This document shows, in pieces, positions 307 to 63,886 of a DNA stretch of 64,000 nt. The notes beneath the pieces are model-generated. The model was given only the letters and a program-made list of their open reading frames with translations. It was not told the DNA's origin and searched no databases. The position numbers were made by a program, and so were the translations under genes. Numbering within the stretch: the first letter of the stretch is position 1; the number at the start of each line of letters is the position of its first letter. Source of the stretch: Gari tellinella (lineage: Eukaryota > Mollusca > Bivalvia > Cardiida > Psammobiidae). The stretch covers positions 42,447,623 through 42,511,622 of the forward strand of contig OV277861.1 in assembly GCA_922989275.2 (NCBI GenBank), given 5' to 3'.

Positions 307-550
307 GGGGCCCGTTTTATTAAACAACTTACGCAAATTAATTGCGTAAGTCAAAATTTAAAATTTTAATTTATATTTTTATTATCACTTGCTACAAACA
401 GCAAATAGCCAGATCAGAGGACGCGCTTTTAGCGCGTCCTCTGATCTGGCTATTTGCTGTTTGCAAACGCTTATGATCGAAAAATAAGAGTTAAACGATT
501 TTTTGACTTATGCAAAGATTTTGCGTAAGTAGTTTAGTAAAACGGGCCCC
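307..550. mobile_element. G-type foldback (GGGGCCCGTTTTA ends) with GATCAGA-type core
   Basis: Ends ggggcccgttttattaaac and complement, second arms ttgcgtaagtcaaaa. The perfect palindrome caaatagccagatcagagga then cgcg ctttta gcgcg is at 402-459. Inserted in an E-type relic. Confidence 0.85.
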
Positions 551-1689
551 AGTCCTCAGTTTGAGAACCTTACGACGCCACGCACAATCTAAATGCACAC
601 GAAAAAACATGAATAGAATCCGTTGAGTGTATACCCTTATTAAAACGGCCGAGCATTGTCTACAATGTTTACAATATCAGGAAATCATATCAACTTCATT
701 GAACCCATTACCCAATAACCCTTTTCTAGATTTAAATAATTTTGTCTAAAGAGAACATACATGAGTGACAGGCAATCTAAATCCTGATTCAGACACAGAA
801 TGTCTCTGATCAGGGGTACAAACTGTGACAATGTGCTCCAGGCATGAACGTTATTTAAAGTGTTAATATATGTAACCGGTTTATACTTTGTAATGAAATA
901 TGAGGATTTAGGGTCTGTTTTGTTATTGAAAGGGAATAGTGATATAGACAGTACAGTGAAGAATATGTTATTACTTCCAATTAAACGCGTTAACACTAAA
1001 ATTATTGTTTCCATTGCAAACAGTTTGTTGCAAGACTAGACGCTGTGTAACCATGCGTCTGATCAGACTCCAAACTATTTGCGACTCAAATTTAAATCAA
1101 TCGTCATTCTTTTTAAATGTCAATTTCTACATTTTATTGCATATTGTGGGCGTTTCGTTTAATATGTTAAAACGGGAGCAAATAATGTCTCCCTACTCTG
1201 GTTCTATTATGTATATATATCTAATTGTCCCAATTGAATTAAATCGCTAGTAATACGACAACATTCATAACGAAAATTTCTTAAATGGAATATCTAAACA
1301 AATTGGATGACAAACATGACCTTGGTATGTCCAAAGAAATACACATTGACTGGTATCTGAGGTTTTAGAAATATTAATGTCAATATAATTACTAGAGTAT
1401 ATAAATATCATAAATAATCACTTGCTTGACAAGAGTCCTTCAAGAGGTTGACATACATAAACTAAGTAGGACTATAACAAAATAAGATACTGGTAATGAT
1501 CCATTGCTGTTATTAGTTCTCTTTCACCACTATGTAACATTTTCGTCAGAAAAAATTGTCGTCTGCTACAATTCTAAAATAACAACTTTCTGAAATTTCT
1601 TCGGGTCAATTACGAGAAGCCGAGATTCTCGGAGTCTCATCTGAATCCAAACTGTTTGCAAAGATAATTACAGTTTCTCTGAAAGGGTG

Positions 1690-1968
1690 CTAAGAGTTAA
1701 TTTTGTATATTTAACACATTCAATCCTAAGGACGAGTATACTCGTCATTGACAAACAGTGTATATGTGAAGAGTACACTTGTCCTATGCAAACGGTGTAG
1801 ACCCTGATCAGAGAACTCCTGCCGGTATCTTCTGATCGGAGTCGGTATTGTTTGTCATATTGCAATATATATCGACAAAAGCAACCCTGAATAGTCACAA
1901 AAAAGACTAGACTTAATTGGAAATTGGAAATTGTCAATTAAAAGTTTCAGAGGCGAATGAGTTAATCC
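1690..1968. mobile_element. F-type MITE, partly decayed
   Basis: acgagtatactcgtcattga, gagtacacttgtcctatgca, gtagaccctgatcagagaac, then actagacttaattggaaatt and gttaatccc. The hairpin is imperfect. Similar decayed F copies lie at 2603-2830, 3220-3490, 7219-7436 and 21608-21784. Confidence 0.7.
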
Positions 1969-2338
1969 CTTCGCTGTCAGGACATCGCAAGGTAACAAAG
2001 TAACATCTCTGATTTGAATAGCATGAGTATGTGCTACATGTAGCTAATTAACGTCTAGAACTGTTCAAGAACTTAAGAAAAACAATAGAGAAGACGAAAG
2101 GCAAGCAGCAAAACACTTAAATGTAAAACAATACTAATTCTTGAAAATGCTGACGATTTCTGATAGACAGCTTCGCAAACAGTATGGAGACTTATCAGAC
2201 GCCGGGTGACCCGGCGTCTGATAAGTCTCCATACTGTTTGCAATGGATATAAGGTTTCTAACACAAACGCGTTTCTTTGGCAATAATAACGTGTTTCCCA
2301 GCGTGCATAAAGACTTGATATGTTGATAGATATCTCAG

Positions 2339-2407
2339 GATGAGGAATCAGGGGATGACCAGCGACTAGGTGGCAATAAAGCGGGCAACAAAGAGAAGGA
2401 CCGAAAG
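2339..2407 (+). CDS. Gene 1 exon a (phase 0-0)
   Basis: Acceptor atatctcag and donor gtaaaa. 23 codons, beginning DEESGDDQRLGG. This is the first exon visible; no Met, so it is internal. A C-type MITE tip begins about 6 nt into the following intron. Confidence 0.7.
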
Positions 2408-5400
2408 GTAAAAAAAGAAAACCTCTCTATCACGACCACTAAATTGTGTTAATTATTAGGTATATACGATAGGTGACTTTTATACAATCAATTAGTCTTC
2501 GTTTTAGTGGTCGTTATAGTTAGGTTTCATTGTATCAAAATTAACACATACGATCTTATACCTTAATACTGATGTCTGTATATTATCTTAACGTATTTCA
2601 ACCTATCAACGCGTCGCAACGAGTATACTCGTCATTAACAAAAAGTGCACCAGTTAAGAATACATTTGTGCCATATAAATAGTGTAGACCCTAGGAGCCC
2701 TCTTATCAGGGACTGCACGGTTTTTCATTTTGCAACATAATTTTTAAACCAACCTAAGTAGTCAAAAATGGACTAGACTTAATCGGAAATTGGAATCGTT
2801 CATTAAAATGTTCAGGGGAGCAGAGTACCTATATGATTTGGCACACTGAATGAGGCATATATGTGTGTTGTAAAACTGTTCTGACAAATAATATTTCCGG
2901 TTTAGTTTCAGCCTACTATAAACTACAAATGTACTACTGATCTGTTAAACCTTCAATGAGTTCTCACTTAATTTAGTTTGATTAGATTTCGTTTAGACAT
3001 TCCCAAAGTTGATTTGGATAGAAAAAACGCAACACTCTTTGTATGAAATGAACTTAATCTTTGCATAGAAAACAGATGGAGAGAGACCCCACACCTCAGA
3101 AAGCGAGTATGAGAGGAAATACAGAAACGTAGGCCTCAAAGGAGGATCACACTACATGGTAAGTTGATAAGGGTCCAAAGTCATAAGGAGTTTTAGTTGA
3201 GTCTTAATTCGTTATCAAGGCTTTAGAATGACCTAAGATTCAACTCAAACTCTTTATAAGATTTGGATCAGGTATCACTATGAACCTGTGAAAACACTTT
3301 TTCAATTCAAATCATGTAGACCCATATCAGAGGATTCTTGAAGGATCTCCTTGGTTTGAGTCTGCACTGTTTGTCATTTGCAGTTAATTGTAAAACAAAC
3401 ACACAAATAAACCCTTAATAGTCTAAAATTGACTTGACTTCATTTGAATCTGGAATTGTCAATTTGAAGATTCAGTGGTGAAAGAGATAATACATGTACA
3501 GTGCTTCCTCTCTACAATTGCCATTCCAACAGCGAGTCCCTCCTTACAACGACCCTTGTCGCAATTCCCTAAACAGGACAATTAGGTCTAACGCTTTACT
3601 GCTGTTATATCGTCTGCTTAAAAGTGTCGTCTGCTGTTTTTCTCAAAAAAACTTAATCACAAGTGACAAACAGCTTGAATTCAGATCAGACGCCGTGTTA
3701 CACGGCATCTGATCTGGATTCAAACCGTTTTCAAATGTAAACCAATGTCCTACCTAAAACGACTCCCTCCGAACAACGCACATATTTTTGTCTCCAATTT
3801 GGTACCGTTGTAGAGAGGGGGCGCTGTACATAGTTTAGCCAATGTATTGATGGATATTATGTTGCAGAACCACTTTTATTGGAACCCCTTTCTTATATTT
3901 CCAGCCATCGGGTTCACTCACTACGGTATTGGTTTCTCGTCATGACGAGGAGAAGAGGCGACTGAAGATGACGAAGACCGAGAAACAGCGGATGACAAAA
4001 CTGGCGCGAAATCGCACGCGGGGATTGGGAGTCAGTGGAGATAACCGCAATCGTGAGGACGGCGAGGATGGAATGTTGACTGACGATGAACTAGGTTATG
4101 ACCAGGATAACAACACACTGTTCATGCAGCAGTATAGGAACAAGAAGAGGATCGAGCATATACTGGATGAGCAACATTACTGGAGCGACCCAGAGGAGGA
4201 CCATGACCGGTTCGGACCACTGCCTGTAGGTTTTACATTCTTTCTGACTCAATCATTTTTTGAACAAATGTTCATTTATCTAATAGTCAATTATATTCCA
4301 ATTCCTGTTTCAATTTTATTCTTTAAAATCAGTTACAAAATACATAAGCCCTTCCATCTCAAACAAGACATATATTTAAAAAAGATATTTAGTGGAGAGC
4401 GTAGTGAAAGTAATGCGGTAGATGGATGTGCAAATACCCAATCAGACCATTCGGTTTGAAGCAGGTGCGCCTAAACCTAAATTTCTGATCATTAATCGTT
4501 GGTTGAAAACGTGAAATAGTTTGTCTAAATAGATATTTTTCAGATCCGCTGAAAAAGGGGTGTGGACAAACTCGCAATAAATGCACCCCTCTTGCTGATA
4601 AGAACTAGTTTTCCATGGACATTAGCTTCATGCGTATCCAAATTACTTGCAGAAGGTACCAACACGGCCTGCAGTAATATTTTGTTGCCTTATTTTGATA
4701 GATGTAAAAATTGTATGGTTTTTTCGTCTTTTTCGCTTTTTCTTCAGTAAGTCTTTCATCGCCGTAGGTTACTATAATCGATTTGGCAAACGGTTTGGAT
4801 CTTGATCCAAACATTTGGCACTCGTTTCAATATTACTTCTGTCGTAACTTGTCTGTTTGAATATCCATAAAACAAATTTGATCCTACGATATTTTGTCTA
4901 CAAAAAGGTTAATTCTTTGAACCCTTGTCACGCATATATGCGTCATTTGTAAACAGTGTACCTGTGAGGAGTACACTTGTCCTATGCAAATAGTGAAGAT
5001 CCTGATCAGAGAGCTCCTCAATGAGCCCTCTGATCAGGGTCTGCACTGTTTGTAGTTTGACACATATATTGTAAAAATCAACACTAAAAAGTCAAAAATG
5101 GACTAGACTAAATTGAAAACTAGAATTGTCCATTTGAGATTTCAGGGAGGAAAGGGTTAAATTATACGATTTAACTCGGTGATATTTACTTGTTTTAGAG
5201 CGAAAGCAGCTTGGTGAGCTCGGATTATGATTCGGACGAGTACGAGATAGTCGTAGATGCGGACGGTTTGTCCAAGCGTGTCAGAAAGACTGACAAAATT
5301 GGTCCTGGTGGCGAGTTAGACACTGATAAACAAAGAGGCAGACAAGTGCGGGGCACCGGCCAATCTGACAATCTGGTTGATGTCGAGCAGCCAGAAAACG

Positions 5401-44300: not shown

Positions 44301-47300
44301 TATTTAATTTTTGTTTAATATCTTATTATGTTCGCCTGTATGGTAAACAAACTGAAAGCCTGGTCAGACGCTGGGTTACTGTTTGCAATTGATATCATTG
44401 TTTTAGCATAAAGGCATTTTTAAGAGAGAAAAAAATAACGTCTTCTCCTTAGCGGTCACTTAATTATCTAGATACTGTAAAACTGGTTTTATTCGCGAGA
44501 ATATAATTTACGCGTTATACACGAATATGTTGCCTCGCGTCTCTAGTTTTGAAAATAGGGGACTTCTTAAAGCAGGTAGAAAGTAAAGCAGAATGTGCCT
44601 TAATGCACATTCTGCTTTACTTTCAGCCTGCTTTAAGCTACCACCTGCTAGAAACATTGCATGATGTCGCGAATTAATACAAATCGCATTTACGCGAAAT
44701 ATTCATGACGCGAAAAATACATGTTTTACAGAATACTTTCTGACATTCCAATTCTGACATTTCTTGTCAGATTTATGAGTATTAATCTTACCGAATTGAG
44801 TACCGTAGGTCAACAAGTGACCCGTGGTCGTGGTTCCGTCAGCTTCCGTCGGAAGTGCAAATGGAGTTTGATCAGACGTACAGTTGTTAGGGGCAACAGA
44901 CGCTGTAGCTCCATTTGAACACTGAAATATCAACCATTTTACATACACCTCAGGTCATATTCTACATGTGTCTTTTCATTATGTAGTTCTTTCAGATTGC
45001 TTCTTAAACCCAACTCTATCTAATCTTATGTGTATGATAGTTGATATGTTTGTTTTAAAGTTGTTTGATTATAGTATCTTATAACTCTGAATAGAGTGGT
45101 AGTGTACAAAGTGATTACTGGTATGTTCTGTTATTACTGATGTATCGTACACCTAAGAGAAATAAATAAATAAATACACCCTTTCTTCAGATATTTTATT
45201 CCGATGTTTCAAATATAAATCGTCTTGCCTGTCATTTGCAAACAGTATAGTACCGCGTCATGCGCTGTCTGATCTGTATCCAAACTGTTTGACACTAGCC
45301 TATTGGTTCTCCTTTAGGGCCCTCTGAGCGGTGTCTATCTACACTGTTTGCACATCACAAGTGTACTCTTCACGTATACACTGTTTGTGAAAGACACTTA
45401 TACGCGTCATTAGGGGTTAGTGGGTTAAGATTATATATTATGAAAATAGCCCAAGATACTTACAATACAAGAAAACCTTCTGGTTGTGGATATAATAGCC
45501 GCATCTAGGTTATAAACCACTGAGCACTGGTACCCGTTATATGCCATATTAGCCACGCAGTAGAACTCTCCCCCGGCTGCAATGTAAGAATGGTGTATAT
45601 GATGATAAATGCGTGTATTTTTAAACTATTACCAAATATATAAAAAGTAAATATGATGATAAGTGCGTGCATTTTTAAACTATTACCAAATATATAAAAA
45701 GTAAATATGATGATAAGTGCGTGCATTTTTAAACCATTACCCAATGTATAAAAGGTAAATATGATGATAAGTGCGTGTATTTTTAAACTATTACCAAATA
45801 TATAAAAAGTAAATATGATGATAAGTGCGTGCATTTTTAAACCATTACCCAATGTATAAAAGGTAAATATGATGATAAGTGCGTGTATTTTTAAACTATT
45901 ACCAAATATATAAAAAGTAAATATGATGATAAGTGCGTGCATTTTTAAACCATTACCCAATGTATAAAAGGTAAATATGATGATAAGTGCGTGTATTTTT
46001 AAACTATTACCAAATATATAAAAGGTAAATATGATGATAAGTGCGTGCATTTTTAAACCATTACACAATGTATAAAAGGTAAATATGATGATAAGTGCGT
46101 GTATTTTTAAACTATTACCAAATATATAAAAAGTAAATATGATGATAAGTGCGTGCATTTTTAAACTATTACCAAATATATAAAAAGTAAATATGATGAT
46201 AAGTGCGTGCATTTTTAAACCATTACCCAATGTATAAAAGGTAAATATGATGATAAGTGCGTGTATTTTTAAACTATTACCAAATATATAAAAAGTAAAT
46301 ATGATGATAAGTGCGTGCATTTTTAAACCATTACCCAATGTATAAAAGGTAAATATGATGATAAGTGCGTGCATTTTTAAACAATTACCAAATATATAAA
46401 AAGTAAATATGATGATAAGTGCGTGCATTTTTAAACCATTACCCAATGTATAAAAGGTAAATATGATGATAAGTGCGTGTATTTTTAAACCATTACCAAA
46501 TATATAAAAAGTAAATATGATGATAAGTGCGTGCATTTTTAAACCATTACCCAATGTATAAAAGGTAAATATGATGATAAGTGCGTGTATTTTTAAACTA
46601 TTACCAAATATATAAAAAGTAAATATGATGATAAGTGCGTGCATTTTTAAACCATTACCCAATGTATAAAAGGTAAATATGATGATAAGTGCGTGTATTT
46701 TCAAACCATTGCCCAATATGTAAAAGGTAAATATGATGATAAGTGCGTGCATTTTCAAACCATTACCCAATGTATAAAAGTGTCGTAAACCTGGGTTTTG
46801 GTCTGCATTGTTGTTTATACTATATTATATACTATGGTAGATTATTGGTCTACATGGTTGTCAATTTAGTTTTATATAGATTCTATGTTTGGGTCTACAC
46901 TGTTGTGTGTAGTTTAAATTGCTGAGTTGGAGCATTAACCTTTAAAGTGCTAATAAGTTAAGGTATTTTGAACAAGACCTTCTGTATGGTTGATGAGAGA
47001 CCAGTTAATAAACAGTTTGCATTTTGGATCCAGATCTGAGTAGTTGAATTCTGTAGAATTGGATCTAAACTGTGAACTGATACTGTAACTTCTCAGGCAC
47101 TTTAAGGATTAATCTTTATGTATATTACTTCATGTATGCTCAATATATTGTTTTACTTATTACCTCCAATAAAGTAACATTAAAGTGCTTTAGGCATTTA
47201 TTGTGTACTCAGTGACCTGTGTGTGCACTGACCCATGTGTATTGAATGAGTCAGCCTCCCATTGGCACTGAGCTAACTAGTAGATTGTGTATTTACTCTG

Positions 47301-53300: not shown

Positions 53301-56300
53301 AAAATGACATTATTATGATAATTTTAACTATTCTTTTTAATCCGAGTGGCAAACAGTTTGGAGCCTGATCAGACGCCGGGTTACCGTGTTGCTGATAGTT
53401 GAGGTAGATTCCTTACCGTGTTACCGGTGATAGAGGGAGAATAATTACCGTGTTGCTTGTAGTCGAAGTAGAATACTTACCGTGTTGCTGGTAATAGAAG
53501 TAGAATACTTACTGTGTTGCTTATAGTAGAGGTAGAATACTTACATTGTACCATGTTGCTGATAGTACATGTAGATGTGAATTACTTACCGTGATGCTTG
53601 TAGTAGAGGTAGAATTACTTACCGTGTTGCTGGTGGTAGTGATAGAAAACTTATGTTGCTGGTGAAAGAGGTAGAATACTTTACGTGTTGCTTGTGGTAG
53701 AGTTGAATACTTACCGTGTTGCTTTTGGTAGATGTATATTACTTACCGTGTTGCTGGTGGAAGAGGTAGAATACTTACCGTGTTGCTTGTAGTAGAAGTA
53801 GAAAATACTTGCCGTTTTGCTAGGGGTAATGGTAGAATACGTACCGAGTTGCGTGTAGTAGAGGTAGAATACTTACCGTGTTGCTTATAGAAGAGGTAGA
53901 TTACTCACCGTGTTACTAGTGGTAGAGGTATAGTACTTACCGTGTTGCTGGTGTTAAAGGGAGAATACTTACTGTGTTGCTTGTAGTATAGATAGATAGA
54001 TATGGATATGTTATTCATACATAAGGCCAGATGCCCAACAGTACACAAGCATACAAATCATGCAATACATAGTCAAAGGCAAAGGTATGTTAGCAATGTA
54101 TACGAGGGGGAAATGAGACATAGCTTTTGATATATTCACGTAAGGATTTATCTTTACATAAATTTATAAGAAGTGTGTTGTGAAACTTTTCTAAAAGAGA
54201 CCGTACCATTTTCTAAATCTCTTTTCGCGAGTAGTAGAGGTAGAATACTTACCGTGTTGCTATTGGTAGATTTAGATTACTTACCGTGTTTCTTGTGGTA
54301 GAGGTAGAAAACTTCCCATGTTGCTTGTAGTAGAGGTAGAATACTTACCGTGTTGCTGGGGGTAGAGGTAGAATACTTACCGTGTTGCTTGTAGTACAGG
54401 TAGAATACTTAACGTCCTGCTTGTGGTAAAGGGAGAATAAGTACCGTGTTGCTAGTGGTAGAGGTAGGGTACTTACCGTGTTGCTGGTAGTAGAGATAGG
54501 AGTAATCGGTTATCTTTGTCGTAACCATGCACTGGTAGACATAGAGATTATTGGACGAATACAGGAATGTGTTCTGAGACCTGAAAATATATATCCAGTC
54601 AGCATAATCACGCCAGGAAAGATCCAAATAGGTAATGCTTTTTGAAGAAAGAAGGTGGAGAGAAAGGACTGAAGAGAGAAAGTCAGAGAGAGACGCATAG
54701 AGAAACAGAGACAGACACAGCCAGGCATACAGAGATAGAAAGAGAGAGACATATAGAGAGATTCACATACACATGCAGAAAGACAGACACACATACACCG
54801 ACACACAGATAGATAGATAGTATGAGGCGCACATACAGGCAGACAACAATAGAGACAAACAGAGAGAGGGTGCACATGCAGATGGAGAGACAGAGAGAGG
54901 GATCAAAATGAATAAAGAGATATAAACAGCAGACAGAAAGAGAAACAGAGAGAGAAAAAAGAGTGTGAGAGAGAGAGAGAGAGAGAGAGATTCAGTGAGA
55001 AAAAGAAGTAGTGGGATATATAAAGACCCTCACAGATTTAACAGGAAGATGGCAAGATTAGAGAAAGAAAGATCGAGAAAGCAAAAGACAGAAATAATAT
55101 GGAGATAGTGTTAGTTTTTCCCATTTAAATGAAACTAAAGGCACCAACAATACGATATATATAAAGAAAGTGGCATTTTTTTTAAATACAGACTGTTCGT
55201 TTCAATCTTATTTGCAAACAGTTTGAAATTATGGAGTCTGGTCAGATGCCGGGGTGCCCGGTGTCTGTTCTGTTCCAAACAGTTTGCACTTAACACATTA
55301 TCCCCTGAAACGTCCAATGGACAATTCCAGTTTGCAATAAAGACTGGTCCATTTTAGACTATTTAGGGTTGTACTTGGTAATAAATTGCAAAAATGCCAA
55401 ACAGTGAAGTCCCTGATCAGAGGGCTCCTACAGGAGCCCTCTGATCAGGGACTTCACTGTTTGCATAGGCCAAGTGTACTCTTCACAGGCACACGTTTGG
55501 TAAAGGACGCATATATGCGTCACTAGGGCTCAATGAGTTAAAATAATAGTTGTCCAATAGCACAAACGCTTTATGGTCACGATAACTATGCAAAACTTTA
55601 CATGTCAACTTGTAAATACAGTGTTCCCTCCCTACAACGGCCCTCCTAACAACGACTCCCTCCTTACAACGACCCTTGCCACAGTTTCTTAAACAAGACA
55701 AGTATTACCAACGCTGCTTCAGTATCGTCTGCTAAAAAATGTCGTCTGCTGTTTTCTCTCAAAGTTACATATAAGTGGATATTCTGATAAAATAAATATG
55801 ATGACGAGTGACAAACAGCTTGAATTATGTAAGCAAAGTCTTAACTTTCCCTCTCTATAACGACACTGTACATCCAACAAAAGTATAAAATAGTGAAGGT
55901 TATTACAAATACTATAGGTTTACAGTAGGGAAGACGTAATAGAGAGGTTTTACTGTATATAATGTGCGATAGAAATGGACATTGAAATAAATTCGATTTA
56001 TTAGCACATACCTGATGACTATATAGGCGGAATTGGAGCTATCCGCGCACTGCCAGGTGGTAATAGTCTGACTATAGATGGTGACGCTCCAACCCGTCAT
56101 GGTCGTCGTCGTGAAGACCAGGGTACCCCGGGTACTGTCGTGCCACGTGGAACTGACGAAGGGCGACTGGAAGGTGCACTGTCCGTATACTGAGAATTGG
56201 AGGGTACAGTAGAAAATACGTTATTCTTTCCCGTTTAACCCTTTACCTGATAGCCTGTTTCTAGTATAGAATATAGGTGACCACTTAAAGCAGGTTGAAA

Positions 56301-57390
56301 GTAAAGCAGAATGCGCCATATGGCGCATTCTGCTTTACTTTCAGCCTGCTTTAAGCCATTACCTGTTAGAATAAGGAATGACACATATTCATTACGGTAT
56401 ATATTGGAACTATTTTCTTCAGCGGAGGAATAAATTAAATACGCTAAAAGTCGCTTCTATAAGGGAAAGGGTTAAACGTAAACGGAATACAATTAAAAGA
56501 AGAAAATGATACGTTTTTGCAATCTCTACCGATCTATTCTAATCTTAATGGCAAATATCAGACGGCGGATTACCCGGCTTCTGTTCTGTTTCCAAACTGT
56601 TTGAATATACATCATTAAATAAAAATCTTAAAATGACAAAAAAAATCAAAAAAAGAACCTGAACAGTTATTTCTATCTGGGTGGCAAACAGTTTGGAGCC
56701 CGGACCTGACTCCAAACTGCCTGTTGGCAATTATTATTTTAGCATAAACACGTTTATAGGGACAGTGGATTTTTTTACAGATGAAATGGAACCTAGCATC
56801 ATCTATGCATGCTAAATTAGTGTCAACATCTATGCATGCTAAAGTATTGTCAGCCTAAAAATATGACGTCTGCGAAATATCTGAAAATAATTGATTTACA
56901 TGTATTGTTTTTATCCCTTTTTACATGTAACTGCTAAATATATCCGTTCATCGCCATAATATTTCTGATTTAAAGCAAAATGGCTGAAAAAACTATTGTC
57001 AAATAGTTTTGACCCTGATCAGACGCCTCGTTGGGCGGCGTCTGATTAAGATCCAAACTGTTTGTAAAGTCAACTGTTTTCGCCCGTGGCTGTGAAAGAG
57101 TTAAAGTTTAACTTATGGTTGTTCGATCTAACATTAAAATGCTTTATAATTATGCTCCATGAAAATCTACAAAATGTATAACATCTATTGCTCAAATATG
57201 TCCTGTAAGACTATTATGGCACATGAAAGAGTCTTTGTAAAGTACAATTAGTTTTGTAAACAAATCATTAAATGAAATAACTTATTCAAACACTTATAAA
57301 TCTGCATTCTTAAAAAAAATAAAACATGAAAAATGATTTACCTCTTAGGGTATTCGCTAACAAGATAATCAAAATAAGTTTAAAATCCAT
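25794..57390 (-). CDS. Gene 2: single-pass type I membrane protein with Lys/Pro-rich tail, complete (869 aa)
   Basis: 16 exons on the - strand join to 2610 nt with matching phase at every junction, from ATG (57388-57390) to TAA (25794-25796). Residues 1-19 (MDFKLILIILLANTLRVYG) form a signal peptide. Residues 20-301 are the ectodomain, with about a dozen Cys, a CTFQSPFVSSTWHDSTRGTL start, N-x-T sites and GGEFYCVANMAYNGYQC. Its Cys spacing and Phe-Pro/Trp-rich start recall the DUF7042-7045 ectodomains of invertebrate membrane proteins (from memory, unconfirmed). The transmembrane helix is residues 303-328 (GVSAGLIAGIVIGVLVLIAA core) followed by the stop-transfer MRHRK. The cytoplasmic tail (about 540 aa) has PRREKS repeats, three short TFL..C motifs and Lys-rich segments. 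It is probably a surface receptor or adhesion protein (inference). Introns hold LINEs, satellites and MITEs. Confidence 0.85.
26405..26655. mobile_element. A-type MITE just upstream of the last-exon acceptor of gene 2
   Basis: TA-flanked, full-length, 60 nt from the acceptor at 26346. The core has ggtcacccggcgtctgatc. Confidence 0.86.
27299..27374 (-). CDS. Gene 2 exon 15, third TFL..C motif (phase 0-1)
   Basis: Acceptor cttttcag, donor gttagt. 25 codons, EWTFLTCCFGNRSPPPQDDA then TEETK. Phase fits both neighbours. Confidence 0.78.
27808..29098. mobile_element. Nested A-type MITEs with J-type and RTE insertions
   Basis: An A-type left arm (27808-27882, cagtggagaaggtgttatgc) is followed by a TA-flanked foldback with cagtcgaaactcgata ends (27885-28062, J type). 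A second A-type copy (about 28090-29098) holds the RTE fragment 28275-29045. The order of insertion can be read from the interruptions. Confidence 0.65.
28275..29045 (+). mobile_element. 5'-truncated RTE-type LINE (C-terminal RT fragment) with target-site duplication
   Basis: Open frame without stops to TAA at about 29031. It encodes the C-terminal half of an RTE-class reverse transcriptase: LEVNVTKTKCLRINPG, TYLGSIVSKTGGTEEDIKAR, VKTVLLYGAETWRSTKRLDQ, FINTCLRQILQIRWPDRIS, KKWRWIGHTLRRSQPNIARQ. It ends in an (AAGT)n tail, usual for RTE elements. A 13-bp duplication gtatttgcgtttc flanks it at 28262-28274 and 29046-29058. It is inserted in an A-type MITE, antisense to gene 2. Confidence 0.88.
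29162..29366. mobile_element. C-type MITE next to a gene 2 splice donor
   Basis: Full-length copy, ends cagtataacctctctattac and gaggtttttctg. It ends 10 nt from exon 14 (29376-29671). Confidence 0.85.
29376..29671 (-). CDS. Gene 2 exon 14, Pro/Ser repeats (phase 1-0)
   Basis: Acceptor tttttacag, donor gtatgt. 98 full codons, starting VDETDKVESPRREKSTLAPP. A 25-residue unit is repeated: TSTPKPEPSQKSPQMSKKN, then TSTPKPDTSQKSPQMSKKN. The tip of a C-type MITE ends 10 nt into the intron. Confidence 0.83.
29986..30324. mobile_element. H-type element (CAGTGAAACCCCTCTAAA ends) with nested D-type MITE
   Basis: TA-flanked ends cagtgaaacccctctaaatc and ggtttagaggggtttcactg. A D-type copy (about 30070-30237, core cttaaagtaggtataatg) interrupts it. 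Confidence 0.75.
30695..31038. mobile_element. B-type MITE
   Basis: cagtgttccctcccttcaac to gtagtgagggaacgctg, TA-flanked, core ccagatcagaatcctgatctgg. In a gene 2 intron 70 nt from exon 13. Confidence 0.82.
31107..31256 (-). CDS. Gene 2 exon 13, Lys/Ala/Gly-rich (phase 1-1)
   Basis: Acceptor cttcttcacag, donor gtaaca. 49 full codons, KPAPKAKTPPKKGKAAAKKG and on to KDMDIAD; reminiscent of histone H1 tails in composition. It matches part of the last exon (PKKAPPKKGGKKGGGKAKK). Confidence 0.8.
31348..31552. mobile_element. C-type MITE nested in an A-type MITE
   Basis: Inserted at TA within A-type sequence (left arm 31287-31346, right part from 31555: gacgtctgatcaagctccaa). Full core gctcctacaggagc. 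Confidence 0.82.
31796..31895 (-). CDS. Gene 2 exon 12, second TFL..C motif (phase 0-1)
   Basis: Acceptor tgttctgcag, donor gtaggc. 33 codons, GTFLSILPCFKKTEEPKQPE and on to VPAPVE. It resembles exons 10 and 15. Confidence 0.8.
32197..32442. mobile_element. A-type MITE with a 15-bp flanking duplication, inside an F-type MITE
   Basis: Almost identical to the other young copies. It is bounded on both sides by taacacaccctccta (32182-32196, 32443-32457), unlike the TA seen elsewhere. The host F-type element spans about 32032-32532. Confidence 0.85.
32571..32618 (-). CDS. Gene 2 exon 11 (phase 0-0)
   Basis: Acceptor ttcatatag, donor gtaaaa. 16 codons, KKEEETKTKKEEDESK; a charged linker. Confidence 0.72.
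33092..33305. mobile_element. E-type MITE adjoining the 545-bp element
   Basis: tccttcaccgccatattgtc start, atgacgccattgattgtcaa end; core half-deleted (tttgatcctatacgcggcgt). Confidence 0.65.
33313..33857. mobile_element. 545-bp inverted-terminal element containing a tRNA-like segment
   Basis: Termini ttaaagcgactcgcaacc and its complement form about 26-bp inverted repeats (33313-33338 and 33832-33857). gctgcc occurs directly on each side (33307-33312, 33858-33863), consistent with a 6-bp target duplication. It lies in a gene 2 intron. Inside are a tRNA-like segment, a T-run and an (AC)n stretch. There is no transposase ORF, so it is non-autonomous. Confidence 0.7.
33628..33718 (+). ncRNA. 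tRNA-like Pol III sequence (SINE head or tRNA pseudogene)
   Basis: A-box-like tggtctaagcgg (about 33643) and a canonical B box ggttcgaatcc (33696-33706) in a T-arm tggg-ttcgaat-ccca, followed after 33718 by a long T-run as in Pol III terminators. The acceptor ends do not pair, so it is not a functional tRNA; the length of about 90 nt is of the Leu/Ser class. Confidence 0.55.
34007..34072 (-). CDS. Gene 2 exon 10, first TFL..C motif (phase 0-0)
   Basis: Acceptor ttgtttcag, donor gtaagc. 22 codons, GFNLTFLPCLKPKGDTTDDK then QT. It is a multiple of 3 and skippable. Confidence 0.8.
34325..34825. mobile_element. Old A-type MITE with nested F-type MITE, ending at the donor of gene 2 exon 9
   Basis: A-type arms at 34325-34550 and 34797-34825 surround an F-type element (34551-34792) flanked by TTAA on both sides. 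The right tip ends CTCTACTG, and TA plus that CAG (on the - strand) provide positions +2 to +6 of the donor of exon 34829-35112. Confidence 0.7.
34829..35112 (-). CDS. Gene 2 exon 9, tail with PRREKS/PKREKS repeats (phase 1-0)
   Basis: Acceptor cactaccag, donor gtacag. 94 full codons. Two adjacent repeats read GAPRREKSFVSTVSRN and GAPKREKSSVSAISRN, basophilic kinase-like Ser sites (inference). The donor's +2 to +6 bases are the TA and CAG of an A-type MITE end. Confidence 0.82.
35640..35850. mobile_element. M-type element with GATCAGA core, 55 nt from gene 2 exon 8
   Basis: aagtggattcttccatattt ... gggatgcctggtcaaaattt ... palindrome ctctaatcagacgccgcatt. Related copies are at 11826-12050 and about 62369-62540 (the latter without palindrome). 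Confidence 0.7.
35905..36063 (-). CDS. Gene 2 exon 8, transmembrane segment (phase 1-1)
   Basis: Acceptor ttctttctag, donor gtaagt. A PESSSSS linker is followed by a hydrophobic run with GxxxG-like small-residue spacing (GLIAGIVIG), then YCYMRHRKNR as the cytoplasmic stop-transfer. The intron upstream of it, in gene sense, contains the intact LINE. Confidence 0.85.
36278..36621. mobile_element. B-type MITE, reverse orientation
   Basis: cagcactccctctctctggt to gttgtagagagggagcactg. Core tagacgccgcgtcacgcggcgtc with cagcttgaatccag arms. Confidence 0.83.
37260..40724 (-). mobile_element. Intact non-LTR retrotransposon ORF (CR1/Jockey-like LINE), 1154 aa
   Basis: One uninterrupted ORF with ATG at 40722-40724. 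Residues about 54-80 are hydrophobic and lead into GDIHPNPGP (81-89), a 2A-like motif. The APE-type endonuclease follows (about 112-330): LSFVHYNVQS, FTETWL, LFGLFYRPPS, IITGDFN, SSSILDLIFVS, YHCPVYG. The reverse transcriptase comes next: IFKSGDPSMVSNYRPISLLS, QSGFTPGDST, FCDISKAFDRVWH, AGVPQGSILGPLLFL, and catalytic FADD near residue 773. A C-terminal CTCGQIENAAHFFLKC Zn-binding motif lies near residue 1085. No upstream gag-like ORF1 is visible. It sits in a gene 2 intron in gene sense. The absence of stops or frameshifts suggests recent insertion. The exact clade (CR1, L2 or Jockey) is not resolved. Confidence 0.9.
41961..42206. mobile_element. A-type MITE, full-length
   Basis: TA-flanked, nearly identical to 13587-13832, in the intron between gene 2 exons 7 and 8. 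Confidence 0.87.
43445..43649. mobile_element. C-type MITE, full-length
   Basis: cagtagaacctttctattac ends, palindrome cttaaagcaatgtaaaagtg with loop around gctcctgtaggagc. Confidence 0.85.
43754..43958. mobile_element. C-type MITE inside an A-type relic
   Basis: Second copy only 105 nt from the previous one, full-length. The A-type relic around it starts near 43700 (agagaagacgtag). Confidence 0.83.
44792..44921 (-). CDS. Gene 2 exon 7, membrane-proximal ectodomain (phase 0-1)
   Basis: Acceptor atatttcag, donor gtaaga. Reads CSNGATASVAPNNCTSDQTP and on to LTYGTQF. N-C-T is a possible glycosylation site. Confidence 0.82.
45464..45576 (-). CDS. Gene 2 exon 6, ectodomain (phase 1-0)
   Basis: Acceptor cttacattgcag, donor gtaagt. 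Reads GGEFYCVANMAYNGYQCSVV and on to RRFSCI. The 54-bp satellite starts within about 10-15 nt upstream of this acceptor. Confidence 0.82.
45586..46780. repeat. 54-bp satellite, left block (about 22 units, dimeric)
   Basis: Unit of 54 bp, e.g. gtgcatttttaaaccattac plus cca, then aatgtataaaaggtaaatat and gatgataag. Two unit types mostly alternate (with some irregularities): '...aaactattaccaaatatataaaaag' and '...aaaccattacccaatgtataaaagg', giving a 108-bp higher-order period. The 54-bp period keeps a - strand frame open for 421 codons, but it is intronic and not a gene. Confidence 0.95.
46781..48629 (+). mobile_element. Solo-LTR-like insertion (1849 bp) in the satellite array
   Basis: Starts TGTCGTAAA and ends TTTACGCGACA (imperfect inverted termini, TG...CA), flanked by a 4-bp duplication AAAG (46777-46780 and 48630-48633) that restores the satellite unit when removed. 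It contains CCAAT (about 48083), a TATAAATA box (about 48132) and AATAAA (about 48461), in LTR-like order. No protease, RT or integrase is present, so it looks like a solo LTR. It lacks the hairpin cores common elsewhere. The strand is inferred from the TATA/AATAAA order. Confidence 0.7.
48273..48428 (+). other. Short hydrophobic ORF (51 aa) downstream of the TATA box of the LTR-like insertion
   Basis: ATG to TAG, beginning MWLLLLAVLLNLCLSLTLNL; strongly hydrophobic and signal-like. It lies between the TATA box and AATAAA of the insertion. It may be chance; the function is unknown. Confidence 0.25.
48634..49436. repeat. 54-bp satellite, right block (about 15 units, monomeric)
   Basis: Same 54-bp unit as 45586-46780, but almost all units are of one type, with frequent point changes (aagtgtgtgc, gattagtgcg) and some short units. 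It continues the array beyond the LTR-like insertion. Confidence 0.93.
49490..51380 (+). pseudogene. Decayed RTE reverse transcriptase split by younger insertions
   Basis: Fragments in several frames: NYRTISLISYPRKIMLTIIL with LNRLKPQAEETIAEEQTRFR (49617 on), a degraded RKYNIGGNFIRVIQQLYEKA piece, LSPALFNIFVI and SIADDIDGLAG (50225-50365), then KYLWGLL, a LRFQSRCPF piece, LMRSLVNRN and a decayed tail to about 51380. A TTAA-type MITE (49970-50204) and a hairpin block (about 50470-50770) interrupt it. It lies in a gene 2 intron, antisense. Confidence 0.75.
49970..50204. mobile_element. D-type MITE (TTAA, CCC...GGG ends) inside the RTE pseudogene
   Basis: ccctttaccccatagcctg start, aagggaaagggttaa end. 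Core cttaaagcaggttgaaagta, partly deleted in the left half. RTE sequence resumes on the other side. Confidence 0.8.
51460..51639 (-). CDS. Gene 2 exon 5, Cys-rich ectodomain (phase 1-1)
   Basis: Acceptor cttgaacag, donor gtaaac. 59 full codons with four Cys, NEVDAPIACADTLLYTADYS and on to FNYTTCSQEIAYS. The N-Y-T is a possible N-glycosylation site. Confidence 0.82.
51967..52209. mobile_element. G-type foldback
   Basis: Same organisation and nearly same sequence as 307-550 (aaatagtcagatcagaggac core), in a gene 2 intron. Confidence 0.85.
52685..52810 (-). CDS. Gene 2 exon 4, ectodomain (phase 1-1)
   Basis: Acceptor tttccacag, donor gtacgt. 41 full codons, VEVNAGNERLRVSASDSLTM and on to EFHVLVKS. 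Confidence 0.82.
53239..53389. mobile_element. A-type MITE, left half only
   Basis: acaatggagaaaacgttattc through the left half of the core (tgatcagacgccgggttacc). It then stops where the 32-bp minisatellite begins; the right half is absent. Confidence 0.7.
53390..54476. repeat. 32-bp minisatellite made from gene 2 exon 3 end plus its splice donor
   Basis: About 26 imperfect units of accgtgttgctggtagtaga followed by ggtagaatactt. On the - strand each reads ...CTACTACCAGCAACACG|GTAAG..., identical or close to the end of exon 3 and its donor at 54477. The period is 32 bp. The left edge cuts into an A-type MITE (53239-53389). It is interrupted at about 54000-54225. Confidence 0.93.
54000..54225 (-). 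mobile_element. Small insertion inside the splice-donor minisatellite, LINE 3'-end-like
   Basis: About 225 bp unlike the array, starting with a tagatagatagata microsatellite (a tail when read on the - strand), and flanked by gtagta on both sides as a possible target-site duplication. No coding motif is readable; I infer a short retroelement 3' end. Confidence 0.4.
54477..54580 (-). CDS. Gene 2 exon 3, ectodomain (phase 2-1)
   Basis: Acceptor attttcag, donor gtaagt. Reads SQNTFLYSSNNLYVYQCMVT and on to YLYYQQH. Its 3' end and donor are the sequence amplified in the 32-bp minisatellite to the left. Confidence 0.82.
54640..55005. repeat. Purine-rich GA/CA low-complexity tract
   Basis: agagagagac, agacagacac and acacatacac words throughout, ending in a pure (ag)n run near 54970-54998. 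It produces open frames on the - strand (Cys/Ser/Leu-rich) that are not genes. Confidence 0.85.
55294..55537. mobile_element. F-type MITE, reverse orientation
   Basis: cattatcccctgaaacgtcc to ctagggctcaatgag, TTAA flanks. Perfect palindrome gtgaagtccctgatcagagg with loop ctcctacaggag. It sits beside an A-type relic. Confidence 0.82.
55619..55880. mobile_element. B-type MITE, core deleted
   Basis: cagtgttccctccctacaac start, regular left arm to gacaaacagcttgaatt, then a jump to the right arm (tccctctctataacgacact). No palindrome is left. Confidence 0.68.
56012..56189 (-). CDS. Gene 2 exon 2, ectodomain (phase 1-2)
   Basis: Acceptor attctcag, donor gtatgt. 58 full codons, YGQCTFQSPFVSSTWHDSTR and on to WQCADSSNSAYIVI; Thr-rich and beta-like. 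Confidence 0.83.
56239..56470. mobile_element. D-type MITE inside an A-type MITE, TTAA target duplicated
   Basis: The A-type arm cccgtttaaacg is split as cccgtTTAA and TTAAacgtaaac. The inserted element begins CCCTTTACC and ends GGAAAGGG, as piggyBac-like elements do. Core cttaaagcaggttgaaagta and gcgccatatggcgc loop. Confidence 0.82.
57342..57390 (-). CDS. Gene 2 exon 1, signal peptide (ends phase 1)
   Basis: ATG at 57390 reading MDFKLILIILLANTLR, donor gtaaat. The hydrophobic core and the split codon completing as Val match exon 2 (VYGQC). The likely cleavage is after VYG. Confidence 0.8.
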
Positions 57391-57536
57391 GATATATCCA
57401 ATATTTAATGTTTCTAAATTAACAACATAATTTATTATTATAGATTAGGGGAGTTTCTAAATACGGCGGCCATGTTTAATTTTAGTCACTGGTCGACATG
57501 GCACTAACAATCAAAACAGTAAAGGCAGTTCCTTAA

Positions 57537-57746
57537 CCCTTACACTCTCAATGACGTCATAAAGCGCATTTGCAAACAGTTTGGATCCTGATCAGACGCC
57601 GCGTAACGCGGCGTCTGATCAGGATCCAAACTCTTTGACACTCGTTTCGAAATTTCGTCAGTCATACTGCCTTATATCTATCTAAATTTGAAACGATATT
57701 GCAAAATACAATATTGAAGCAGACGACAATATGGCGGTGAAGGGGT
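57537..57746. mobile_element. E-type MITE 150 bp upstream of the gene 2 start codon
   Basis: cccttacactctcaatgacg to ggcggtgaagggg. Perfect palindrome tggatcctgatcagacgccg around cgtaacg. Its place suggests that it lies in or next to the promoter or 5' UTR. Confidence 0.82.
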
Positions 57747-58125
57747 AAAAACCTCACGACACTTTTGATAATGAAAGGGTTATTGTGAACAAAATAAGTG
57801 CTGAGTGATAAATCTGAAAGTATTCCAGCATATTGAAACATTGCTTCGAAACCCATCACCTACTGTATGGACGTGATTTTCATTACTTGTATACATTTGA
57901 TTTATACTGATAAAAACAAAATGAAGACAATTTTTTCGGGAATTTAAGAACATTATTAATGAAATTAATACAAAAATGTGTATTAAGGGGGTTTGCATAG
58001 ATAGGGACACTAAATTCTTTTGTTTCAGATTGTTCATCTAGGCGACTGAGCAAATACAATAACCGGAACAAAGTGAAATTGTACACCTATACTAGCTTTT
58101 TATAGAGAATGCGGTAATGCTTTTA

Positions 58126-59570: not shown

Positions 59571-60344
59571 AGTTGATATAAACAATGTGACGTCGTTTCG
59601 CGCGTTACGTGCATGGCGGCTCTAAATTGATATTCACAACATATTTTATAAACTACGAACAAGACGATTCCACAGCCAGGGTTGATAAGCTCGGTGTAAT
59701 AGAATAAATATTAGTAGATGACGTCATTGCAGTGAATGGGTTTAAAATTGTGTCTTGTTTGGGGAACTGTGGCAAGTATTGTTGTAAGGACGGAGTCGCT
59801 GTTCGGAGGACCGTTGTAAGGAGGGAGCACTGTACAACTCTTACACTGTTAAATTGTACCGTGTGCTTTAACATTTTCACCGGTCCGCAATACTGGTGTC
59901 TTCATTGGTACAATGGAGAAGGCGTTATTATTTCCCGTTTAAACGCATACCAAACGCAAACGCAATGCACTTCAATGTAGAAAATTGAAACATTTTGAAA
60001 TTGATCATTTATTATAATTTGAATTGCAAACAGCTTGGAGCCTTATCAGACGCCGGGTTACCTAACTGTTTGCAGTAGAAATAATGTTTTTGGCGTAAAC
60101 GCGTTTATTGGGAAAGAATAACGTCAAAAGACAGATTTACGACATTTTCAGTGTCAAACATTGTGAACGCTGATCAGACGGCGTCTGATCCGGATCCAAA
60201 CCGTTGTAAACATCGCTCGGGGACGCCTGTGGTGGTTTCAGTGTTGAAAATGTCCACCTGCTTTAACTTCTCAAATCTAGATCCAGATTTTTGGCTGAAG
60301 AAACATTGGCATAAGTACATGTATCGAGCAGTTTGGATCCTAAT

Positions 60345-60688
60345 ACAGTAAAACCTCTCTATAACGGCCCTCCCGACAATGACTCCCTCCTTACAACGGC
60401 CCTTGCCGCTGTTCCCTAAACAGGACATTTATATCTAACGCTTTTCCGCTGCAATATCGTCTGCTAAAAGTTGTCGTCTGCTGTTTTTCTCAAAGTTACT
60501 TATCAATAGACATTTTGACATAAAAACTTAACAGCTTGAACCCAGATCAGACGCCGCGTTACGCAGCGACTGATCTGGATTCAAGCTGTTTGCAATGTAA
60601 GCCAATTTCCCTCCCTATAACGACTCCCTCCGAACAACGCACATAGTGTTTGTCTCCCACTGGGTGTCGTTGTAGAGAGGGAGCGCTG
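60345..60688. mobile_element. B-type MITE with a C-like left tip
   Basis: Starts cagtaaaacctctctataac (C-like) and then continues as B (ggccctcccgacaatgactc), ending gtagagagggagcgctg. Core ccagatcagacgccgcgttacg. An apparent hybrid end. Confidence 0.78.
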
Positions 60689-61009
60689 TACAGCTGAGAA
60701 GACGTCATTATTTCCCAATTTAATCAATTTATGCCTGGATATTGCAATGAACTCTCATTGTATACTTCCTGAAAGATTTCATTGTAGATATATAAAGATG
60801 ATCTGTTTGTCGCAATATAGCATAACAATAAAAAAAACAGTTTTTGAACATTTCTACCTATTCATTTTCAAAGGTAGAGAGAATAGATGACAGCTACCTC
60901 TAGACTGTGTTCTTCCTGCAGATGCTGTGGGTCTAAATGGGAGTTCCGGCGGAGTTGTACCATTGACCCTGTGCCTGTCTTGTGGATCTTGATGGTAGTG
61001 ATAATGACT

Positions 61010-61257
61010 CTGGGGCCCGTTTCATAAAGCTTCGTGCGACAAATGTTGTCGTAAGTAGAAACTTTAAAATACATTTAATTTCTGATTTCTCCATCTAATC
61101 CTGTCTTGTGACATCTCTTTTGGAATCGTCTTTACAAGACGATTCCAAAGAGATATCACAAGACAGGATTAGATAGAGAAATAATTAATAATTGAGATTT
61201 TTATAATCTGACTTACGACAACATTTGTCGTACGAAGTTTTATGAAACGGGCCCCAG
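61010..61257. mobile_element. G'-type foldback
   Basis: Second copy of the element at 13111-13357: same ends, same hairpin tggaatcgtctttacaagac with few changes. Confidence 0.85.
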
Positions 61258-63886
61258 ATCTCTTTGAAACCGGTTGGCTGCGGGTATGTGGTATAATTCT
61301 TGGGCAGTTTATTTATATGAAGGGTATAATTCAGCTATAGATAGTGTAGGGGCAACAATGACTTTTAAATCACTATTTTAATCATGCCATCGATCTTTTA
61401 ATTAGTTGACTCATTTCAAAGTTGAATTTACAAACTAAGTTTCCATGTTTCCATGTAACTTATTAATGTATCATGTTTATTGTGATTGAAGTTATGTGTC
61501 CTTTCTTGCTTTGTAGGTACATTTATATAAGTCAATGTGAAGCGCGTGAACGCACAACTCCTGAGTGAAAAGAGCGCATACATAAATCGGGTATAATAAT
61601 AATAATAATCACTATTGAGTCTGATCAGGCGCCAGATTACATGTACCCGGCGTCTGATCTGGCTCCAAACTGTTTGCAATGAACATAGTATACATAGTTA
61701 GTTTAACATAAAAACATTTATTGAGAAAGAATTGTGATAAGGACAGCGATATAAATCATAAAAAGTGTTAACTCTTGTTCTATAAAACTATATGTTTTCA
61801 TGGTTATTTCCCCTCTGGATCATATACCTGGCGAGTTGAAATAACGTACCCCTTGCTCTGACCTATCTGCTGCTATAGATTTAGAGAAAATCCCGATACA
61901 CGTGACATACCGTTGTGATCTTGACCACATGCTGAATTAATACATAACGATGTCTGAATTGGATCCAGACTGTTTACAATACACGCCAAAGTCGCACTCG
62001 GTAGGAATTTTGTTCACCCTCAGAATACTGATCAAAAGTTGAATAAAACTTGCAACCAGTCTGGATCCGGCTCAGACGACACGTGTAGACGACGCGCAAC
62101 GTGACGTCTGATCAGGATCCAACATAGTTGACACTTGTGTCGACGTTTCTTTGTTCAAAGTACCTAATCTCCTCTTGTGAGACTTCAAGCAGATGTTATT
62201 GTAGTGACCAAAGGGTTACGGTTTAGCGTGGTAAAGGATTGACCTCGGTTTAACACGCGGATCTACTTTTCAAACATTTGATGTGATAAGGATCAAGTTT
62301 GAATTTAAATAAACGAATACTCTATAACGTTGAAACCTTTAAGCCTAGTGTCTACTAAAGAGGATATTGGCAAACAGTGAAGACCCTGCTATGATTTTCA
62401 ATATAAAACAAAACGAAGACCCTGCTATGAATTTCAAAATAATTATAACAAAAAGAAAATGAAAAGTTTGACCAGGTACCCCTTACATCAGAAATGGACT
62501 AATCCAATATATAAGCAAGGACGAATCCACTGGGCGTATTTCTGGCTGTCAGTCTTTAAAGAAGAGCGGACATCTGTAAAGACAGGTTGTTGTTCTATTA
62601 AGAAAACGAATAAAGTGGAAGTGGGTACATGTAGTTTTATTCGTGCTTTAAATTCTTAGATAGATCTATACTTTTATCTTGCATTTAACTATAATAGTGG
62701 AGAAGACGTTATTCTTTCCCATCGAAAACACAAACTATTTACATGTATATACGTATATCTTAGCAATATGTGTGACAAGCTGTTTGCAAAGGATATAATA
62801 GTTTTAGCATAATATATTAATTCATTTGGAAATGATAACGTCCTCTCCATTGTATACGAGTATTGACCCGATACTTTATATCATTTATACTGTAGAGAAG
62901 ACAATTATTCTTTCCCAACAAACGCGTTTACGCTAAAATTACTATGTCCAATGTTAACAGTTTGATCAGACTCCAAACTGTTAGAATAGATAAGATTAAA
63001 AAGTATGATTTTTCTTCAGAATATAACTGTGTCACGGTGTAAAAATTGTAATTCTTTTAAGAATATTGAGCCCGCTCTATTATGACAGCTTACTGCCTTA
63101 CACATAACGTATAATGGCGAAAGCTGAAAGCTCATATAGAGGCTTTCTGCTTTACTTTTGTCTAGTGCATTAAATTACCGCATATATCTAACATTACTAA
63201 CACAAGTTAAACTGTATAAATCGAATTACTCTTCTCTTACTAAAATGTAACCTTATTACAGCGGTTTATTTTTAGCTGCAAATGTAGACACAGTCGAGCT
63301 TCCATATCTCGAACTCGCTATAATCGAACTTACCCGTATTTCAATGTTAAAACGTGGCATAGCGTCGTTTTAACATTGAAATACGTGTAAGTTTGACTTA
63401 AGCGAATTAGGATTATCAAAATTCAACGGTAGAATTACGGGTGAGTTTGATTTAAATAATGTCGAATTACTAGGTTGGTTGTATATATACCTGTGGTATT
63501 TATACCTACAATATGATTCAGGCTTGTAAGCGATTCAGCAGTGTGTACTTATGTTTCGTGAATGCCTTAGATAACTCAATACAACCCCGGGTCATGTATT
63601 ATCAAAGTTTTCGAGCGAAGCGGATAAACTTGTTAGTGATTTTCCTCACTTGTTTGAAGGTTAAGAAAGGTGTTGTGACCAATCGGTCTTTATTTTACAG
63701 TACGTCTTCTCTTTGTCGATCAACTCTGTAGGACTATCGATTCAATCGTCGTTCATAGGCAGGTGGTCGCTTAATACAGGACAAAGGTCAGACAGAAAGC
63801 TTATATTGTAGTTTCATGTCTTATTTGTGTCCTGTATTAATGATTTGCCACATAGTTTATCTGAAAGACGTGCGATAAAAAATAAA

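Follow-up and report, generated by a model that had tools for sequence, protein, structure and literature searches.

Why do MITEs with non-homologous ends and different duplications carry the same internal hairpins? The question is raised by a window of 64,000 nt from Gari tellinella (the whole stretch of DNA that was analysed), in which a first-pass annotation had described two types of palindromic core recurring in several MITE families. Counting palindromes with a score of at least 14 and a loop below 8, we find 47 in the window and 0 in each of three first-order Markov shuffles, so the abundance of hairpins is real. A sample of the same genome, made of 20 stretches of 10 kb at round coordinates, contains 167 palindromes in 200 kb, with a minimum of 0 (L024) and a maximum of 16 (L028) per stretch. 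When sorted by a word rule, 26 palindromes of the window are type I and 10 are type II, and those of the sample are 69 type I, 54 type II, 8 type III, 1 type IV and 35 other. Types III and IV are added here to the earlier two: the cores already listed are present, but the window holds more of them than were listed. Families H, J, IIIA, IIIB, K, L and M are likewise new. All 15 element starts given earlier do hold the elements and cores described, though the flank of the E element at 20591 is degenerate. The cores are 49-96 nt long, with arms mostly of about 30-48 nt, the family consensus lengths are 193-369 bp, and masking by the fourteen hairpin-core families covers over a quarter, about 30%, of the genome sample.

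By size, ends and copy number, and by duplications in the families so described below, the hairpin-core families are MITEs, short non-autonomous DNA transposons, non-coding as judged by their length. TA and CAGT ends are seen in the TA families A, B, C and K, candidates for the Tc1/mariner type, and 37 of 39 young family A copies have TA at both ends. Family A (TA plus CAGTGGAGAATCTGTTATTC ends, type I core) occupies 10824..11073 (+, core 10943-11009), 13585..13834 (+, core 13704-13770), 25452..25701 (-, core 25516-25582), 32195..32444 (+, core 32314-32380) and 41959..42208 (+, core 42078-42144); the copy at 13585..13834 has at least 40 genome copies, itself included, at 99-100% identity. Family B, with TA ends, a type I core and an E-type flank inside, lies at 36276..36623 (-, core 36361-36425) and 60343..60690 (+, core 60530-60592). 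Family C (TA plus CAGTAAAACCTC ends, type II core) lies at 18456..18664 (+, core 18512-18607), with additional copies at 29160..29368 (-, core 29217-29311), 43443..43651 (-, core 43500-43595) and 43752..43959 (+, core 43808-43903), and a family K element (TA plus CAGTCGAA-type ends, type IV core) at 63290..63455, unstranded.

TTAA with CCC ends is found in families D, F and H and at the left only in E, and J is only TTAA-like. Family D (TTAA plus CCCWTTACC ends) is at 56235..56475 (+, type II core 56284-56355). The remaining TTAA-type elements have type I cores: an E-like MITE with a TTAA plus CCCTTTGCC end at 20587..20800 (+, limits by eye, core 20627-20691), family E at 57533..57748 (+, core 57573-57637), family F at 4909..5160 (+, core 4987-5052) and 55290..55541 (-, core 55398-55463), and family J, with its TTAA-like left end and CCCA, at 11821..12035 (+, core 11862-11928) and 35658..35872 (-, core 35766-35832). 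Family G (CTGGGGCCCG ends, type I core) is at 305..552 (+, core 395-463) and 51965..52211 (+, core 52056-52124), and family IIIA, whose ends are homologous to those of G, carries a type III core at 13111..13357 (+, core 13193-13275) and 61010..61257 (+, core 61092-61174). Two elements have a D-type core and D flank: family L (AGGGCTGCCA ends, 6-bp duplication) at 22219..22464 (+, core 22280-22351) and family M (CTGTAAAAC ends) at 44473..44735 (+, core 44566-44637). The 6-bp duplication was seen by eye in 9 of the 10 listed family L copies, and the long copies number at least 40 for L and at least 40 for M, including the one in the window.

Type I cores sit in the TA elements A and B, in the TTAA-type families E, F, H and J and in the GGGGCCC-ended G; type II cores sit in the TA family C, the TTAA family D, the 6-bp-TSD family L and the CTGTAAAAC-ended family M. 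Cores of both types align across families whose ends are non-homologous, and hairpin cores recur in six end types. The observation that elements with non-homologous ends and different duplications share hairpin cores thus stands, for A/B, E/F and G and for C, D, L and M. One reading would be a single ancestor of all families whose ends diverged later. Because the flanks of E and H are homologous and the TTAA families begin with CCC, common descent likely holds among the TTAA families. For the non-TTAA families, however, single ancestry is already contradicted: the duplications differ (TA, TTAA, 6 bp), the flanks of A, C and G have no significant homology to TTAA families (best p=0.015-0.13, each the best of 20 comparisons), and G and IIIA keep homologous ends around cores of different type. 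As an account of all the families, we hold a single ancestor to be extremely unlikely. Comparing core and flank identity between families by local alignment proved a weak argument and was set aside, since local alignment inflates flank identity.

Alternatively, a bare hairpin cassette could still be exchanged between elements by gene conversion or template switching, the latter being favoured by palindromes. Consistent with this, the core is the sole part that A, C and G have in common with the TTAA families, and the D-type core hardly differs between D, L and M flanks: the D core (51 copies with the distal D right arm) equals the L core at 71/72 positions and the M core at 69/72. However, core variants other than that of D are mostly bound to one family. 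Among assigned copies the core variant matches the adjacent flank in 40/41 of A, 9/9 of B, 29/30 of F, 4/4 of G, 7/7 of H, 18/19 of C (one ambiguous), 10/13 of E and 3/6 of K, and the 65 assigned copies of the D-type core have a D flank in 58 cases, an L flank in 5, an M flank in 1 and a mixed flank in 1. Few rows of this table are off the diagonal, no verified copy has a foreign core within native ends, and 45 of the 57 unassigned contexts, inspected by eye, contain no convincing core-only insertion. Since most variants are family-bound and the cores of L, M and B brought TTAA-MITE flank along, the ongoing swap of a bare cassette that had been proposed is not visible here, and we regard it as very unlikely. 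The D set used for the consensus and for divergence by distance included some family L copies; the core-by-flank table, the D core and the compensation count were redone without them, with the same outcome.

The flank that travelled with the core can be followed in detail. Family L retains the D left arm, beginning with its sixth base and reaching the core (score 59, against a maximum of 27 in 2,000 shuffles), and also 26 nt of the other D arm (p=0.002), M holds 25 + 16 nt of D flank beside the core, and in B the E flank extends as far as the core (score 51, against a shuffled maximum of 30). TTAA-MITE flank carried with the core in these three families points to a small number of founding captures or nested insertions, and the pattern is the one expected from nested insertion or capture with later erosion. 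A TTAA terminus remnant in B is not significant by itself (p=0.41), and an unbiased 13-mer search for remnant TTAA ends in nine non-TTAA families gave none that is significant (best p=0.083), so the case for nested insertion rests on the flank homology of L, M and B.

The explanation that we favour, and judge to be moderately probable, is that other elements captured the hairpins of TTAA MITEs and have retained them for a benefit of the core to amplification. Each MITE would then combine two modules: ends, which specify the transposase, and an inner hairpin that arose separately. The first carriers of type I and type II hairpins were probably TTAA (piggyBac-type) MITEs, which would have inserted into, or been captured by, elements with TA, 6-bp-TSD, GGGGCCC and CTGTAAAAC ends; the composites would have amplified as new families, in which the inner flank eroded and the core stayed, retained as it would raise the chance of being copied. 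The core might form a cruciform or hairpin that acts during excision, replication or repair; alternatively, it might be a site for a host factor working with several transposase classes. We infer both the direction of transfer, from TTAA MITEs to other elements, and that A, C and G arose by the capture route of L, M and B. Against the latter speaks the fact that these three have nothing but the core in common with TTAA families.

The inner flank pieces in L, M and B would also be left behind if the hairpins were functionless passengers, that is, if TTAA MITEs nested in other elements were amplified by chance and the hairpin was less often deleted or mutated. The cores of D, F and C, less diverged than their flanks at all distances with data, speak for this as well; such lower divergence fits constraint on the lineage and a lower mutation rate alike, and the two cannot be separated. 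Counts of private and shared variants were used for young family A only, and were dropped as an argument in D, F and C since independent hits look shared at high divergence. In the 40 youngest copies of A, 11/43 variants fall in the core, which makes up 26.8% of sites, so that single-copy changes are equally frequent in core and flanks, contrary to what a protected passenger would show. In a set of 84 copies, variants present in at least 5 copies number 1 in the core and 31 in the flanks (p=0.001). Two results weaken this contrast: in the 84-copy set the core has a deficit even of singletons (ratio 0.68, p=0.044), and 7/8 shared-variant classes in stricter sets of 73 and 76 copies are not significant. 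Young A copies thus decay evenly in core and flank, yet changes common to many copies avoid the core. Core-less copies are also few: in 8 families, each search yielded 7 to 106 anchored hits, of which 0-2 had both flanks and less than 40% of the core, and in family A there were 0 such copies, against 35 and 42 copies with all parts present. Given in addition the recurrence in six end types, and the fact that long palindromes are usually unstable rather than protected, we consider mere passengers unlikely.

What is kept in the core appears to include its pairing, at least over long times. When type I arms are compared across seven families, one copy each, both partners have changed in 16/33 pairs, and pairing holds in 96.9% of cells, compared with at most 36.5% when the arms are slid. 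The claim that the arms stay complementary therefore holds across families, but not strictly within each consensus, where A has one T.T mismatch, D one T.G mismatch and F three non-complementary positions, including one at the apex. Similarly, pairing is kept while sequence changes only between families and between older subfamilies, where compensatory changes appear; young family A copies show 2 compensated against 109 one-sided arm changes, and 34 young copies show 0 against 24. These last counts give no sign in A of arm-to-arm correction as the cause of lower core divergence. Covariation between families, together with a fold that is very stable in all six cores tested (DNA parameters), would also be expected if the hairpin were retained for its use to the host, for instance as a source of small RNAs or as a regulatory RNA. 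This is highly improbable in our view, as single A copies decay evenly without compensation and the window has 0 Rfam matches at gathering score.

The hairpin, besides the ends, may instead help such elements multiply in this large genome. Going further, and tentatively, it could be a portable amplification module that works across unrelated transposases, with selection acting on pairing and on two motifs, in type I AAACAG and GATCAGA, in elements that are still copied. An element with terminal repeats that acquires the hairpin could then become a successful MITE family, which bears on the question of how gene-less MITEs become so abundant and what separates successful families from those that fail. 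This one genome offers natural swaps of both kinds, one core between different ends and homologous ends around different cores, with young family A among them, and this makes a role for internal sequence directly testable with paired constructs. The arrangement also suggests a modular origin of new mobile elements, with parts of old ones combined across transposase classes.

The piggyBac profile PF13843 has 86 matches in the genome. The 6 that were examined include a possible autonomous partner for one TTAA family, H: this is L080, an intact-looking, piggyBac-like element with a 621-aa open frame between H-like TTAA ends. It contains no palindrome of score 12 or more, that is, no core.

The first-pass annotation knew of no named system of this kind, but a close precedent exists in the CMITEs of Acropora corals (Wang et al., 2010; PMC2872659), the only close one among the papers listed by our literature searches. 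As described in the parts of that paper covered here, CMITEs are TTAA MITE families with CC[C/T]T ends, about 100 bp in size and with some 1,600 estimated copies in A. millepora, that share an interior: families differ less from one another in a 75-bp internal region than in the TIRs, most of this region is missing from a piggyBac element that has the CMITE TIR, and CMITE-IN is a composite formed by CMITE insertion. Its authors propose a role in transposition for the internal region (PMC2872659). Gari tellinella is similar in that type I and II interiors are more conserved between families than ends, and in that the piggyBac-like L080 lacks the core. Unlike CMITEs, which are TTAA elements only, its cores also occur in TA, 6-bp-TSD, GGGGCCC and CTGTAAAAC elements, and the covered parts of the coral text describe neither a long hairpin nor sharing across duplication classes, both of which are found here. 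For mPing and related rice MITEs, internal sequence besides the TIRs alters mobility in a yeast assay (PMC9921582); the abstract of that study mentions no hairpin core common to several superfamilies, as seen in Gari tellinella.

A relation to the coral internal region itself was not convincing (60-mer against 14 families, best p=0.033 uncorrected). Six core words were not found in paper texts, and the type I pattern had 0 exact matches in contigs of bacterial and archaeal genomes and in viral contigs, as did the type II pattern in viral contigs, collections that are not for animal genomes. Foldback or palindromic MITEs are small elements with large inverted repeats, in which the terminal repeats form the foldback. 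In Gari tellinella, by contrast, the hairpin lies in the interior, as a part distinct from the ends.

The occurrence of one hairpin core in elements with different ends is real and unusual. A palindrome scan detected 47 hairpins in the window, compared with 0 in three first-order Markov shuffles, and all 15 elements named in the first-pass annotation were found there. The same scan returned 167 hairpins from twenty 10-kb stretches, taken at round coordinates on 14 contigs of the genome (1.6 Gb in 80 contigs, those up to C19 each tens of megabases long), with an uneven density that ranged from 0 in one stretch (L024) up to 16 per 10-kb stretch in others. For each of 12 families a consensus sequence was built from between 6 and 60 copies (60 being the upper limit), and these families account for 52,692 of the 200,000 sampled bases. 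When families L and M are added and whole elements are masked, the covered sequence rises to 59,095 of 200,000 bases, or 79,223 of 264,000 including the window. Type I and type II cores together occur 123 times per 200 kb sampled, which by extrapolation would correspond to approximately one million in the genome. The sequence left after masking holds 14 other repeat clusters of no assigned class, each at four or more places, so that MITEs lacking a hairpin need not be rare; the commonest remaining repeat (fetched locus L026:676-825) is present at 40 sites across the 264 kb. Further long palindromes with arms of 45-83 nt, which by the word rule belong to none of the four core types, lie in the window at 24182-24350, 11534-11669, 12805-12933, 50607-50726 and 52908-53003.

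The type I core (AAACAG...GATCAGA...) is carried by families A and B, with TA, CAGT ends, by E, F, H and J, with TTAA or TTAA-like, CCC ends, and by G, with CTGGGGCCCG ends. The type II core (CTTAAAGCA...CAGAA) is found in C (TA), in D (TTAA), in L, which has AGGGCTGCCA ends and 6-bp duplications (judged by eye in 9 of 10 listed copies, e.g., AAATAT at L010 8415), and in M, which has CTGTAAAAC ends. Families IIIA and IIIB carry type III cores, putatively related to each other through a short apex, and family K a type IV core. Folded as single-stranded DNA, all six tested cores reach -36 to -46 kcal/mol, and 0 of 200 shuffles folded equally well. The apex of a type I core (window:55398-55463, CAGAGGGCTCCT) matches that of the type II core in family C (18512-18607, CAGAAAGCTCCT) at 10 of 12 positions in register, and the two types may be distantly related.

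The first-pass annotation proposed that the hairpin is exchanged as a cassette between elements with unrelated ends. This was right in part. The core of D recurs between different ends in L and M (71/72 and 69/72 positions identical to a D consensus from the 51 copies that have the distal D right arm), and the ends of G and IIIA, which enclose cores of different type, are homologous at both termini (score 74 against a shuffled maximum of 30, and 55 against 28). Ongoing exchange finds no support, as core variants mostly adjoin the flank of their own family: among assigned cores this holds for A in 40 of 41, B 9/9, F 29/30, G 4/4, H 7/7, J 3/3, IIIA 6/6, IIIB 14/14 and C 18/19 (one ambiguous). 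It also holds for 10 of 13 E cores (two adjoin B and one C) and 3 of 6 K cores (one ambiguous). The 65 assigned D-type cores adjoin D flanks in 58 cases, L in five, M in one and both D and L in one. An initial tally left 57 cores with no assigned flank, many of them degenerate or belonging to families that lack a consensus. Because variants are mostly bound to their own flank, each combination of core and ends seems to have become established a single time in each family, with exchange not visible at present.

Some of the sharing extends beyond the core. L includes the D left arm, starting at the sixth base of that arm and running to the core (score 59; no higher than 27 in 2,000 shuffles), together with 26 nt of the D right arm (p=0.002), and M has D flank on both sides, 25 nt on one and 16 nt on the other. 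B includes the E right arm as far as the core (score 51, shuffled maximum 30), although a terminus of E inside B is only suggestive. Both L and M have at least 40 long copies including the window copy (22219..22464 and 44473..44735), to which the others are 86-90% and 92-95% identical, respectively. Judged by these sequence matches, L, M and B look like cases where a TTAA MITE was inserted into another element, or captured during repair, and the inner flank was then lost. Families A, C and G share nothing significant beyond the core, and we therefore infer only by analogy with L, M and B that they arose by the same route.

Because the best 40 matches of family A, including the window copy (13585..13834), are 99-100% identical to that copy, this family is very young; 37 of 39 fetched young copies have TA at both ends. 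In the 40 best copies 11 of 43 variants fall in the core, which makes up 26.8% of the sites, and in 34 young copies of an earlier set single-copy variants are as frequent in core as in flank (ratio 1.02, p=0.90). A set of 84 copies, none more than 20% away from the majority sequence (the 40 best-scoring, sample copies and further loci, more divergent copies being excluded), has 1 core and 31 flank variants present in at least five copies (p=0.001), and 6 and 57 present in at least three (p=0.001). Singletons in this set, too, are less frequent in the core (p=0.044). Stricter sets of 73 and 76 copies gave the same trend, with seven of eight shared-variant classes not significant. The simplest reading is that the core is preserved in elements that continue to be copied, while dead copies decay to the same extent in core and flanks. 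Families D, F and C show lower divergence in the core than in the flanks at all distances with data, which may reflect either lineage constraint or a lower mutation rate.

The arms had also been described as remaining paired while their sequence changes, which is borne out between families and between old subfamilies but not between copies of the young family A. When one copy from each of seven families is compared, both partners have changed in 16 of 33 pairs, and pairing holds in 96.9% of cells. Compensated cells exceed the permutation values in D (39 vs 15.8, maximum 26; once L copies are removed, 34 vs 14.5, maximum 22), C (19 vs 7.8, maximum 13) and F (9 vs 2.6, maximum 8). Counts of this kind are inflated by kinship of copies, and the permutation preserves column make-up only. 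Compensated cells are not above permutation in A (2 vs 1.4), B (1 vs 1.0), IIIB (1 vs 0.7) or H (0 vs 0.1), and not clearly so in E (5 vs 1.5, maximum 6). One-sided changes outnumber compensated ones in every family counted (234 in D without L). From the counts between and within families, pairing has therefore been kept over the long run of lineages, through selection or rare regeneration of the palindrome. The most likely account is that hairpins of TTAA MITEs were captured into other elements and then, presumably, retained because they would help amplification.

An internal sequence able to alter mobility is described for mPing (PMC9921582). The closest likeness is to the coral CMITEs (PMC2872659), described as TTAA MITEs with an internal region that varies less from family to family than the ends do, an autonomous piggyBac sharing their ends and little of their interior, and one composite family that arose by insertion. 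The present system resembles them; unlike the CMITEs as described there, it spans several end types, its hairpins are long and its abundance is far greater. The literature searched, with most subscription journals outside it, reports no hairpin common to MITEs of different duplication classes.

Six of 86 piggyBac transposase matches were examined, and two have convincing ends. One of these elements (L080 1162-3803) is piggyBac-like and looks intact: its ends are H-like, its open frame spans 621 aa, and it lacks a palindrome. Upstream of it, at 3-923, are direct repeats of ~160-base period. The second (L078 1181-3881) has an AT-rich palindrome (score 14) and none of the cores. Several transposase matches in the genome-wide search have equal scores, four of them at 312 bits with frames 616-633 aa long, which points to recent piggyBac activity.
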